From the IMG/VR virus record IMGVR_UViG_3300042691_037918, positions 1 to 52,006 of that record: a stretch of DNA of 52,006 nucleotides. The stretch is one strand, 5' to 3'. The notes under the pieces were generated by a model. It had not been told where the DNA came from, did not search any database, and saw only the letters and a list, made by a program, of their open reading frames with translations. This stretch comes from a virus. This document shows positions 38,683 through 41,621 of this stretch, in pieces. How positions within the stretch are numbered: the stretch's first letter is position 1; every line of letters starts with the position of its first letter. The translations under genes were made by a program, and so were the position numbers.

Positions 38683-39312
38683 GTGGCGTATTTGAATCAC
38701 AATCTTCCCGATTGGTCCTGTTACATACGCAATGAGTTTCTGTACAACCACAAGCAAGGTCATGGTGAAGTAACAAAATGTGACGTGCATTCTGTTGCCA
38801 GCATTGAGAAGCGAGTGCCTCTCTTTGAAGCCTTTCTTGAAAACGGTGTGAATTGGACACGGCGTCCCCTGCATGCTTTCTGCTGGAAGCCCGATGCACC
38901 CATCGAACCTTTGGAAGATGTGATGTATTGGGATTGTTTCTCACCTTATATTGACGTTCAGAAACGTGCACGGCTTGCCGGGTTGCAAGCTGAATTGATC
39001 AAGCCCAGCGGTGAGAAGGCTCTTGGCTCTTACATGTTTACTCTTGATTGGTCATGGGAAAACAAGGGTACGACCGACTTTAATTTCTCAGAGACACCTG
39101 AGCATAAGTGCGCCCATCTTTTCAAGATGGAAAGCGGCAACTACTACGCGTATCCCAACAATCGAATTATCTGGTACGACAACGCCTGGACCTTCAACCG
39201 AATCAAAGAAAACCCAGGGTATGAGATCGATATGACGGTTTACTCCGTTGAAAACAAAAAGAAGCTGGAGACCTCAGACCATTACATGTATGAGGTAAAG
39301 CATGTAGAATAA
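38683..39312 (+). CDS. Unknown protein after the structured leader
   Basis: About 209 residues, GTG 38683 chosen (TTG 38677 is also possible). Aromatic- and Trp-rich mixed protein with FEAFLENGVNWTRRPLHAFC and LGSYMFTLDWSWENKG. No catalytic motif recognised. No Shine-Dalgarno sequence is seen because the terminator occupies that place, so expression may depend on read-through or on an alternative fold. Confidence 0.6.
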   Translation: MAYLNHNLPDWSCYIRNEFLYNHKQGHGEVTKCDVHSVASIEKRVPLFEAFLENGVNWTRRPLHAFCWKPDAPIEPLEDVMYWDCFSPYIDVQKRARLAGLQAELIKPSGEKALGSYMFTLDWSWENKGTTDFNFSETPEHKCAHLFKMESGNYYAYPNNRIIWYDNAWTFNRIKENPGYEIDMTVYSVENKKKLETSDHYMYEVKHVE

Positions 39313-39335
39313 TTTTGTTCCCCCTCTCTTTGATG

Positions 39336-39426
39336 GGGCTCAGTTGGCCGCTGATGCGCCGGGGACCCATTCGGCAAGCGCGAAGGCTGGGTGACTCGTT
39401 AGGCAAATAGTCTAGAAGGAGAGCCC
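39336..39426 (+). ncRNA. Structured tRNA-sized RNA element
   Basis: GGGCTC at 39336-39341 closes with GAGCCC at 39421-39426. Inside are CCCA/TGGG with a GCGC core, and GACT/AGTC arms. It is too irregular to be a normal tRNA; function unknown. Confidence 0.4.
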
Positions 39427-39434
39427 AAGATAGA

Positions 39435-39506
39435 GGTGCAGTCACTGTCTGGATACGCCTGGTTAACTCACAGCCCGATTGTCGGTAAGCCAGTTACACT
39501 GCATCC
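39435..39506 (+). ncRNA. tRNA-sized element with acceptor-like stem
   Basis: GGTGCAG at 39435-39441 pairs 7 bp with CTGCATC at 39499-39505. The length, 72 bases, is that of a tRNA. A CCGA/TCGG hairpin lies inside. The T-loop consensus is missing. Confidence 0.4.
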
Positions 39507-39547
39507 ATCTATTAGCAACACCTCCTATGCTTAGCTCCGATACGTAG

Positions 39548-39578
39548 ACCATTTTGTTGACGTAACCAAAATGGTTTT
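39548..39578 (+). terminator. Rho-independent terminator
   Basis: ACCATTTTG at 39548-39556 pairs with CAAAATGGT at 39567-39575, followed by a short T-run. It separates two groups of RNA elements. Confidence 0.65.
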
Positions 39579-39606
39579 CAGGATGATGCACAAACCAGGG
39601 GGTCAC

Positions 39607-39679
39607 TCGGTCGGTAGTCTATTGGTAAGGACGGGCAGACAATGCACAAGAAAGCTGGTTCGATTCCAGCACGACCGAT
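39607..39679 (+). tRNA. tRNA-like gene with abnormal anticodon arm
   Basis: 7-bp acceptor TCGGTCG with CGACCGA, D stem GTCT/GGAC, and canonical T arm GCTGG-TTCGATT-CCAGC at 39654-39670. The anticodon region is two bases short and folds as GCA-GACAA-TGC with a five-base loop, so the anticodon cannot be called. Either a pseudo-tRNA or a tRNA-like RNA. Confidence 0.55.
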
Positions 39680-39680
39680 C

Positions 39681-39763
39681 AGGGTGCAACAAGGAACGTT
39701 GCATTAAACAAAGGATCCCCTCGGCCGCATCGTAGATCATCGTAGGCGGACATCCTTGCCCTA
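39681..39763 (+). ncRNA. Two-hairpin RNA element between tRNA-like genes
   Basis: AGGG/CCCT closes two hairpins: TGCAAC/GTTGCA and AAGGAT/ATCCTT with an inner CCGC/GCGG. A direct ATCGTAG repeat is in the second. Same overall plan as the neighbours; function unknown. Confidence 0.35.
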
Positions 39764-39767
39764 ACAC

Positions 39768-39800
39768 CGGGGATTAGCGCAGTTTGGTAGCGCGTCTGCT
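39768..39800 (+). tRNA. 5' half of a split tRNA-Pro
   Basis: CGGGGAT acceptor, then a canonical D arm GCGC-AGTTTGGTA-GCGC and the 5' strand of the anticodon stem, TCTGC. The sequence stops resembling a tRNA at the anticodon loop, where the insertion begins. The matching 3' half is at 40261-40295; together they resemble bacterial tRNA-Pro. Confidence 0.65.
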
Positions 39801-39819
39801 AAGCTGTTTATCCCCTCTC

Positions 39820-39890
39820 CGGGATGTAGTAGAAAAGTATCACACTGCTTTTGGGAAGCAGAGGAGAAGGGGCAGTACCTTCCATCCCGA
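39820..39890 (+). tRNA. tRNA-Pro(UGG)-like gene inside the insertion
   Basis: 71 bases: CGGGATG/CATCCCG acceptor (7 bp), anticodon arm CTGCT-TTTGGGA-AGCAG with anticodon TGG, and a T stem GAAGG/CCTTC. The T loop GGCAGTA is not the usual TTCRANY, and the D stem is weak. Acceptor and anticodon features make it a tRNA-Pro, possibly unorthodox but functional. It lies within the split tRNA-Pro. Confidence 0.6.
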
Positions 39891-39895
39891 TTAAC

Positions 39896-40258
39896 ATGGC
39901 TTCAAAAATTTCTGACTACAAAAAACGTAGACAAGAAATGCTCCAGTATTTAGGCGGCCAATGCAAACATTGCAACTGTTTAGATAATCTTCAATTTGAC
40001 CATATTGATCACAGTTTAAAATCTTTTGACATTAGTGCTAAGTGGTCAACACATTGGGATCTTTTAACAAAAGAACTTGATAAGTGTCAGTTGCTTTGTA
40101 AAGCTTGTCATAAAGAAAAAACAAAGCAAGAAAAAAGCTGGGCCAAAAGCTGGACAACTCAACCTCGGCAAAAACATGGGACTGTTTGGTCGTATGCAAA
40201 ATACAAATGTCGTTGCGATCTTTGTAAAGCGGCTAAGAAAGCGTCAAATAAAAAGTAA
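39896..40258 (+). CDS. HNH endonuclease inside the split tRNA-Pro
   Basis: 120 residues from ATG 39896. CKHCNCLDNLQFDHID (about 21-36) and CQLLCKACHKEKT (about 63-75) give the zinc-bound HNH core, followed by a Cys pair (CRCDLC) near the C-terminus. It starts six bases after the tRNA-Pro-like gene and ends two bases before the 3' half of the split tRNA, so the insertion is only slightly bigger than the two genes. Confidence 0.85.
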   Translation: MASKISDYKKRRQEMLQYLGGQCKHCNCLDNLQFDHIDHSLKSFDISAKWSTHWDLLTKELDKCQLLCKACHKEKTKQEKSWAKSWTTQPRQKHGTVWSYAKYKCRCDLCKAAKKASNKK

Positions 40259-40260
40259 GA

Positions 40261-40295
40261 GCAATGGGTCGCAGGTTCAAATCCTGCATCTCCGA
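40261..40295 (+). tRNA. 3' half of the split tRNA-Pro
   Basis: GCA continues the anticodon stem, then a canonical T arm GCAGG-TTCAAAT-CCTGC and acceptor strand ATCTCCG, which pairs with CGGGGAT at 39768-39774 (one G-U). The anticodon stem can form only three pairs after rejoining, so precise excision would not restore a perfect arm. Confidence 0.6.
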
Positions 40296-40296
40296 T

Positions 40297-40372
40297 CACC
40301 TGGTCCGAACTAATTGGATAAGACGGTTACTGCCGCTGCAGGACGATGTAGGTTCGACTCCTACCCAGGTGC
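40297..40372 (+). tRNA. tRNA-like gene without a normal anticodon loop
   Basis: 7-bp acceptor CACCTGG/CCAGGTG and canonical T arm GTAGG-TTCGACT-CCTAC. The anticodon region forms CTGC-CGCT-GCAG with a four-base loop, and no seven-base loop can be drawn. Starts two bases after the split tRNA-Pro ends. Confidence 0.55.
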
Positions 40373-40446
40373 TATTAAGAATCTCAATAAACCACGTTTA
40401 TTGAGAAAACTGATAAATTATAGGTACACGTGCACAAAAATTATAC

Positions 40447-40701
40447 GTGACCTGGGACACTGCTAAAAAACGTATCGATAAGAATCGACAGAAGTTTCTG
40501 GAGTACAAGAAGACTTTGCAGTGCAAGAAGTGTGGGTTGGATGATCATCGTGTTCTTGAGTTCCACCACATAGGTGACAAGGACAATAACATCTCCAGCA
40601 TGGTGAACCATGGCTACGCCTGGAGCAGGGTAGAGGAAGAGATCAGTAAATGTATTCCGTTATGTTGCAACTGCCATAGGCTTGAGCATTGGGCTAGTTA
40701 A
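40447..40701 (+). CDS. Small HNH endonuclease
   Basis: 84 residues, GTG start at 40447. CKKCGLDDHRVLEFHHIG (about 26-43) and CIPLCCNCHRLEH (about 69-81) form the Cys-bound HNH. Shares the TTAA stop overlap with the opposing gene. Together with the HNH at 39896 it flanks the last tRNA-like genes. Confidence 0.85.
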   Translation: MTWDTAKKRIDKNRQKFLEYKKTLQCKKCGLDDHRVLEFHHIGDKDNNISSMVNHGYAWSRVEEEISKCIPLCCNCHRLEHWAS

Positions 40702-41621
40702 CGGAATTTAAATTGAACAGGATAGCCAGCACCTGGTTGAATAAAACCAAACTTATCCGCAAGACCAAGAGCTCTATCCGCTAGTTTTCTGCTGCTTTCA
40801 GGTTCACCTACAACACCGCCAACCATAGAGCCTGGGGCAAATAAAGGTGTACCTACGTTGTAGGAATTAAAATCATATCTTTCATCAGCAGTTTGACCGT
40901 CTTGCACTTTATAACGCCCTAAAGTATTAACCAATCCTTTATTGACAAGAGCCGTTTGTTCTTGATTTAAACCCAAGCCTTGTGCACCAATGTTCCCATA
41001 ATCACCAACAACATAATTAGATGGTGTATATCCTTGTTGTCTTTGTTTAATTTTTTGTTCTGTTGTTTGAACAGCTAACTCATTTCGATCTCTTAATCCT
41101 AGTTGTTTTGTATATTCATTTACTCTTTGATCTAGTATATTTACTTGATTTAGTTGTTCTTGAGTTGCAGGTGAACCTTTGCCATACATGTTATACATTT
41201 CGTTTTGACTGTTTACTGCTCTAGAAGCATTTATCCAATCACCAAAAGTTTTTTCAGCTGTTAATCGCAAAGGATTTACGGTTACTTGCTGCGTTAGTTC
41301 TTTGTTCAGCAAAGCTTCTGCAGCTTTGGTATCAGCAGGAATGCGTGTTAAAGGTTGCGAAGTGCCTGAAAGAAACCTTGCAAACATCCCTTCTTTAGCA
41401 GGAACAATACCTGCTTCCATTCCTTTATCTAAAAGGGGAACAGCAACTTTATCTCGTACGGTTTTATAGATTGGTGATTGAGAAATATTGCGAATATCAG
41501 GAGCAATACCAGAAGAAATAGATGCTCCCCCTGGTAACACGCCTTTAAATACATTTTTATCAAGCTGACCGTATCCTCGGCTTACTTGATTGAGTAAGTT
41601 TTGAAATAAGTTTGGCATCAA
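40698..41621 (-). CDS. Unknown protein, Gln/Asn-rich
   Basis: 307 residues, overlapping the Dps-like gene by four bases. Helical and Gln/Asn/Gly-rich, with LLNKELTQQVTVNPLRLTAE and repeated polar stretches. AT-rich third positions give codon use unlike the neighbours, a possible sign of later acquisition. No family recognised; it may be virion-internal. Confidence 0.55.
   Translation of the reverse strand: MMPNLFQNLLNQVSRGYGQLDKNVFKGVLPGGASISSGIAPDIRNISQSPIYKTVRDKVAVPLLDKGMEAGIVPAKEGMFARFLSGTSQPLTRIPADTKAAEALLNKELTQQVTVNPLRLTAEKTFGDWINASRAVNSQNEMYNMYGKGSPATQEQLNQVNILDQRVNEYTKQLGLRDRNELAVQTTEQKIKQRQQGYTPSNYVVGDYGNIGAQGLGLNQEQTALVNKGLVNTLGRYKVQDGQTADERYDFNSYNVGTPLFAPGSMVGGVVGEPESSRKLADRALGLADKFGFIQPGAGYPVQFKFR

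Follow-up and report, generated by a model that had tools for sequence, protein, structure and literature searches.

The window analysed here is a virus record of 52 kb, compared below with other contigs that carry L-numbers. The top DNA matches near its tRNA-Pro region (blastn) are Synechococcus phages, and the virus is cyanophage-like. At the locus, as the original prediction had it, a tRNA-Pro gene is interrupted in its anticodon loop by an insert holding a second tRNA-Pro(UGG)-like gene and a gene for an HNH endonuclease (Table 1).

The 5′ half of the split gene reads CGGGGAT TA GCGC AGTTTGGTA GCGC G TCTGC T, with the D arm at 39777-39793. The 3′ half contains a T arm at 40271-40287 (GCAGG-TTCAAAT-CCTGC), an acceptor strand at 40288-40294 (ATCTCCG) and the discriminator A at 40295. 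All seven acceptor pairs form between the halves, one of them G-U, and blastn of the region aligned both pieces to one intact tRNA-Pro of Synechococcus phage S-H38. The halves had been described as canonical; this holds for the acceptor stem and fails for the anticodon stem, where two of the five pairs (the outer pairs 27-43 and 28-42) do not form in the window. ARAGORN reported neither the split nor the nested tRNA-Pro in the window.

When viral contigs were scanned with the HNH protein, two others, L006 and L007, proved to have the same arrangement; with the window they make up the window group. Their HNH proteins are only 66-68% identical to that of the window, and recurrence of the layout despite this divergence means that it is not a product of chance.

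Table 1. Features of the split tRNA-Pro locus in the window, and similarly organised loci elsewhere
Feature	Location	Strand	Details
5′ half, split tRNA-Pro	39768..39800	+	Acceptor strand, D arm, 5′ anticodon stem, U32
Whole inserted element	39801..40259	+	Replaces TTGGG, tRNA positions 33-37; by comparison with L083 1419-1492 and L062
Left linker of insert	39801..39819	+	19 nt; from sequence and fold
Nested complete tRNA-Pro(UGG), proposed replacement tRNA	39820..39890	+	Rfam tRNA, 41.5 bits
HNH endonuclease gene, proposed homing endonuclease	39896..40258	+	120 aa; PHROG 4234 (phrog_4234)
3′ half, split tRNA-Pro	40260..40295	+	A38, GCAAT 3′ anticodon strand, variable loop, T arm, acceptor strand, A73
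tRNA-Thr(GGU) locus	Mycobacterium phages Dandelion/NoodleTree		tRNA-Thr 5′ half, HNH, complete tRNA-Thr(GGU); intact in FrayBell, Flabslab
tRNA-Gly(GCC) locus	Mycobacteriophages Tyke/Gizmo		tRNA-Gly 5′ half, HNH, complete tRNA-Gly(GCC); intact in Willis, Bread
tRNA-Pro(UGG) locus	L135/L136		tRNA-Pro 5′ half, HNH, complete tRNA-Pro(UGG); intact in L213, L216

In the left linker, AUCCCC is able to pair with the orphaned acceptor strand GGGGAU (fold of 39768-39896, z = -2.97), and the nested tRNA might thereby be shielded from mispairing. Across 39769-39815, the CCCC of the linker is also kept in L006 and L007.

Between the tRNA genes lies a conserved structured RNA (39680-39761; also L003 2574-2653, L004 2505-2583 and L007 about 1789-1869) with the motif GGGTGCAACAAGGAACGTTGC...GGATCC...GGACATCC..GCCC and apparent compensatory changes between cyanophages; it matched no Rfam family. 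A tRNA-like gene at 39608-39678 (also L003 2496-2567, and L013) has a short hairpin (loop GACAA) in place of its anticodon arm. Its stem changes compensate (GCA/TGC versus GGC/GCC), so the gene is conserved, although it seems to lack an anticodon. Another tRNA-like gene, at 40296-40373, has an aberrant anticodon arm and recurs beside tRNA-Pro in the related contigs L014, L038 and L062; in the window it is followed by a second HNH gene (40447-40701). At 976-1217 a group I intron adjoins an HNH-like ORF on the opposite strand (403-981). In L079 (2925-3027), a tRNA-Pro anticodon loop is enlarged by roughly 25-30 nt (CTTTGGTAAATGCCTTCGTAAGAGGACATTTTCCGAGCAG).

Intact alleles and the junctions of the insert

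Uninterrupted alleles in relatives had been proposed as a check, and they proved numerous: a scan of related viruses with the T-arm/acceptor sequence yielded L083 and about 20 others. In L083 the corresponding place is taken by an intact tRNA-Pro(UGG), and L083 shares the upstream RNA and the downstream HNH gene (HNH2) with L006 and L007; the intact tRNA-Pro of L062 is flanked on both sides by the window's own flanking sequences. Since such syntenic intact alleles exist, the middle part is an insertion and the two window halves belong to one tRNA. The insert is absent from one and the same site in L083 and L062 and present in the window, L006 and L007; the same contrast was found for Willis versus Tyke, FrayBell versus Dandelion and L213 versus L135.

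The 5′ half of the split gene in the window is identical to that of L007 at 32 of 33 nt, and L007 in turn matches the intact allele L083 exactly over this stretch. When the intact alleles are sorted into types A, B and C, an assignment made from few diagnostic positions, the window's 5′ half differs by one change from type A and by three from type B. The 3′ half, from GCAAT through A73, is identical to the type B intact alleles L032, L043 and L063 and differs by two changes from type A. Because the halves match different alleles, the broken pairs 27-43 and 28-42 are explained by recombination between alleles. Derivation of the halves from different tRNAs, which the original prediction had named as evidence that would tell against it, is contradicted by the intact alleles; both come from one tRNA-Pro, though in the window from different alleles of it.

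In L006 the D arm and variable loop are of type C (as in L034, L061 and L062), with a few type A nucleotides beside the insert. The insert thus occurs in alleles of three different backgrounds and is bordered by short tracts from the donor, a pattern that is expected for homing with co-conversion and that we regard as good but not conclusive evidence for it.

The HNH gene and similarly split tRNA genes

The window HNH matches PHROG 4234 with E=7e-30; Pfam model PF01844 gives a weak HNH match of only 13.1 bits, under its cut-off. DH, KCQLLC and H motifs, the HNH/zinc-cysteine signature, are invariant in eight relatives. A profile search of the PDB matched no solved structure. The gene is under purifying selection, with dN 0.035 and dS 0.26 (dN/dS about 0.13) for L006 versus L007 and dN 0.28 and dS 1.2 (about 0.23) for the window versus L007.

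Relatives of the PHROG 4234 type belong chiefly to phages, with 257 in viral contigs versus 14 in 84,980 species genomes, and are commonly located in tRNA arrays. For most of the family members that were scanned no split tRNA could be detected, so only a minority of them split a tRNA gene. The reading frames of HNH genes often run into the following tRNA gene (L166, L178, L192 and L194; L012, L023 and L028) and stop there, apparently at a TAG formed by U8-A9-G10 of that tRNA.

A script that sought orphan tRNA 5′ halves upstream of PHROG 4234-type HNH genes added Tyke/Gizmo, NoodleTree and L135/L136, along with a few obvious false matches. A general split-tRNA finder run on HNH loci returned, among acceptor-paired splits, the window group only; an earlier run had also returned Dandelion and weak false matches. 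In Dandelion the orthologous tRNA-Thr 3′ half lies further downstream. The intact allele of L135 was predicted to be a tRNA-Pro(UGG), and L213 and L216 subsequently proved to have such a gene at this locus.

All four loci combine a tRNA cut in the anticodon arm, an HNH gene next to it and an adjoining complete tRNA that is unrelated but has the same anticodon. Were neighbours drawn at random from about 20 tRNA kinds, four anticodon matches in four would have a chance near 1 in 10^5, a rough estimate, as arrays can cluster isotypes. The spare tRNA precedes the HNH gene in the window group and follows it at the other three loci. Insertion falls after position 32 in the window and after about 31 in L135, and identity is lost after 26 in the mycobacteriophages. 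In Glutamicibacter ardleyensis (L221 749-1370), an orphan tRNA 5′ half, a related HNH gene and a complete downstream tRNA-Thr(CGT) make a possible fifth case.

Targets and replacements at the four loci are 49-69% identical, and tandem duplication of the target as the source of the spare tRNA was rejected on this divergence. Their longest shared runs are 7-9 nt, so that any cut site longer than this would be absent from the replacement, which is plausibly immune to cutting. Exactly 20 records contain the replacement tRNA-Gly at full length, and precisely these have the Tyke-type HNH (20/20), although the upstream flank of the locus is common to 190 records; the replacement tRNA-Thr occurs in exactly 11, those with the Dandelion-type HNH (11/11). 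Relatives with the intact allele have no replacement tRNA at the locus. By anticodon (4/4), divergence and linkage, the cargo is a diverged equivalent of the target that travels with the endonuclease. The suggestion that the element supplies a substitute for the tRNA that it breaks draws support from the empty sites, the three further same-anticodon loci and the linkage in mycobacteriophages, and its description as a clever way to insert harmlessly would fit.

An unusual class of phage tRNA

Proline identity is specified by C1-G72, A73 and the anticodon UGG. The nested tRNA has all of these together with a regular anticodon loop, and its acceptor and anticodon stems pair fully (7/7 and 5/5) while varying in sequence across relatives. 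The canonical elbow is missing: the T-loop is GGCAGTA, not TTCRANN, and the D-loop has no GG. The D-arm sequence was found in 20 viral stretches, nearly always as part of a whole tRNA and mostly outside split tRNAs, and the gene is free-standing in about 15 other viral contigs.

In L014, L021, L022 and L031 the odd tRNA fills the slot between GGGGGTCACT and ATCACCTGGTCC that is held in L043 by a canonical tRNA-Pro(UGG). Among 41 contigs, chosen for holding one or the other tRNA-Pro and many of them fragments, a canonical tRNA-Pro is present in one of 20 with the odd tRNA, and the odd tRNA in none of 21 with the canonical one. This near mutual exclusion suggests that the two are functional alternatives.

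The odd T arm, GAAGGGGC(A/G)GTACCTTC, is shared by phage tRNAs of at least five isotypes, assigned as Pro, Lys, Ile, Val and Gln (L090-L117), and by one with the loop TTACCAA. Across these isotypes the D-loop without GG and the odd T-loop are conserved; the acceptor and anticodon stems differ yet still pair, and the non-proline genes encode CCA. Streptomyces phages carry related odd tRNA genes, mostly unannotated. A search of bacterial and archaeal genomes for the pattern gave no match, and a search of the open-access literature returned nothing on noncanonical phage T-loops. Judged by its sequences, the class of phage tRNAs with an odd elbow is real and widespread, whatever its function. A role in translation is presumed; activity is not assured, since the normal T- and D-loop motifs are absent.

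Proposed homing with a replacement tRNA

We propose, with a probability of about 75%, that the insert is a mobile homing element whose HNH endonuclease breaks a tRNA gene and which carries a diverged replacement for it, that is, a natural home-and-rescue drive. In a mixed infection the HNH protein would cut intact tRNA-Pro(UGG) genes of the other phage, with a specificity that would place the cut site in the anticodon arm. With the genome that bears the element as repair template, the HNH gene and the spare tRNA would be copied into the break, along with short stretches of the donor tRNA. The target tRNA would be destroyed, and the spare tRNA, too different to be cut, would supply the lost function in translation. 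Counting against this reading are the weak Pfam match of the HNH protein and its lack of a match among solved structures, the differing order of spare tRNA and HNH gene, the many family members beside which no tRNA is split, and the odd elbow of the spare tRNA; the phages may also have no need of the tRNA.

HNH genes could instead land anywhere in tRNA arrays, disruption being tolerated only where a same-anticodon tRNA is present, which would make that tRNA a survivor rather than cargo. This would suit the frequency of the HNH family in tRNA arrays, the odd tRNA-Pro as a common free-standing gene of related phages, and three contigs (L012, L023 and L028) where the HNH gene adjoins an odd tRNA-Pro and no tRNA is split. 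It sits poorly with replacements that adjoin or overlap the HNH gene at all four loci, lie inside the insert in the window group, are missing at the locus from intact-allele relatives and, for Gly and Thr, are never found apart from the HNH gene (20/20 and 11/11). We consider such coexistence by chance unlikely.

The original prediction had also offered an unusual tRNA intron. Splicing in cis or trans would then join the halves to give a functional tRNA-Pro, the nested RNA serving as part of the splicing machinery. The 7-bp acceptor stem of the halves is indeed kept in all three contigs and the 5-bp anticodon stem in L007, and the window and L007 diverge far less in the halves than in the HNH gene. 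Low divergence of the halves is, however, also expected from repeated homing into conserved alleles; selection on the halves for a spliced tRNA was replaced, as an explanation, by homing into different alleles, and recombination between alleles also accounts for the two broken anticodon-stem pairs of the window. The anticodon-loop bases TTGGG are missing from both exon ends, so that joined exons would not restore a complete tRNA and no simple joint restores UGG. Rfam detects the group I intron at 976-1217 of the window (89 bits) and matched no intron core in 39300-40800 (E up to 5) or in L006 and L007 (E up to 0.5). With no Rfam match and the anticodon bases lost, a group I or other intron was rejected. 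The noncoding part of the insert is about 95 nt, nearly all of it a tRNA that is free-standing elsewhere. The D and T regions of the nested RNA are invariant in L006 and L007, which had prompted the idea of a ribozyme, regulatory leader or intron core; this was dropped, since the gene is free-standing in many contigs. An intron is very improbable. With positions 33-37 replaced, no group I intron detectable and the halves drawn from two alleles, the outer tRNA-Pro is, on this comparative evidence, broken and not spliced.

We likewise give scant credence to decay only, in which recombination within the array brought unrelated neighbours into an already dead tRNA-Pro and neither mobility nor rescue continues. 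The tRNA arrays of these phages do vary greatly and include several aberrant tRNA-like genes, but the HNH gene is under purifying selection, the element occurs in three allele backgrounds and the pattern arose at four loci in distant phages.

In synthetic homing-rescue and Cleave-and-Rescue drives, the nuclease that disrupts a gene moves together with a recoded version of that gene which it cannot cut. These drives are engineered in insects and guided by CRISPR; the element in the window would be their natural counterpart. SegB, of a different endonuclease family (GIY-YIG), resembles it as a phage homing endonuclease associated with a tRNA array. SegB of T4/T6 has cut sites that map within tRNA genes (PMC13096335), spreads neighbouring tRNA genes to related phages (PMC6409571, citing Brok-Volchanskaya 2008) and is described as free-standing beside the array, whereas the window HNH gene lies within a split tRNA gene, together with a substitute of the same anticodon.

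For rescue, fungal mitochondria offer the closest precedent: mobile ORFs (Allomyces macrogynus atp6; Glomus atp6, atp9, cox2 and nad3) bring a foreign, diverged replacement for the displaced part of a gene (PMC3630166). There too an endonuclease element inserts in a gene and brings a replacement, which however is the C-terminal fragment of a protein gene; here it is a whole tRNA gene beside a dead one, in phages.

A group I intron-encoded endonuclease specific for the anticodon region of tRNA-fMet (Bonocora and Shub 2001, cited in PMC3984707) shares its kind of target, the anticodon region of a tRNA gene, with that putatively cut by the window HNH. Such group I insertions are made neutral by self-splicing, whereas no intron is detectable in the window insert. 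The same 2014 review places all phage introns then known in protein-coding genes (PMC3984707).

HNH genes in mycobacteriophage tRNA clusters are of the same kind and location as the elements here. A role for them in spreading tRNA clusters has been suggested (PMC6409571), and the accessible text of that paper does not mention split tRNA genes holding an HNH gene and a same-anticodon tRNA. A search of the open-access literature likewise returned no account of an HNH gene in a split phage tRNA with a same-anticodon substitute.

Selfish endonucleases must spare the gene that they invade, and the known ways are self-splicing introns, inteins and intergenic sites. Fungal mitochondria already provide documented cases of a supplied replacement, for gene ends; supplying an entire substitute tRNA would, if true, be a natural version of the engineered homing-rescue drives. 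Among phages of M. smegmatis, isolates with and without the tRNA-Gly and tRNA-Thr elements exist and form a direct test system.

We lean towards the wider view that phages host a natural home-and-rescue family, in which HNH endonucleases invade anticodon arms, bring along a same-anticodon tRNA too diverged to be cut, and can thereby spread in a population and remodel tRNA repertoires; in cyanophages the rescue tRNA would be of an unrecognised kind, without the TPsiC/GG elbow. The nested tRNA also indicates a class of phage tRNAs whose elbow is non-standard, and the home-and-rescue family, if real, would help to explain both the crowding of HNH genes in phage tRNA arrays and the fast change of those arrays.
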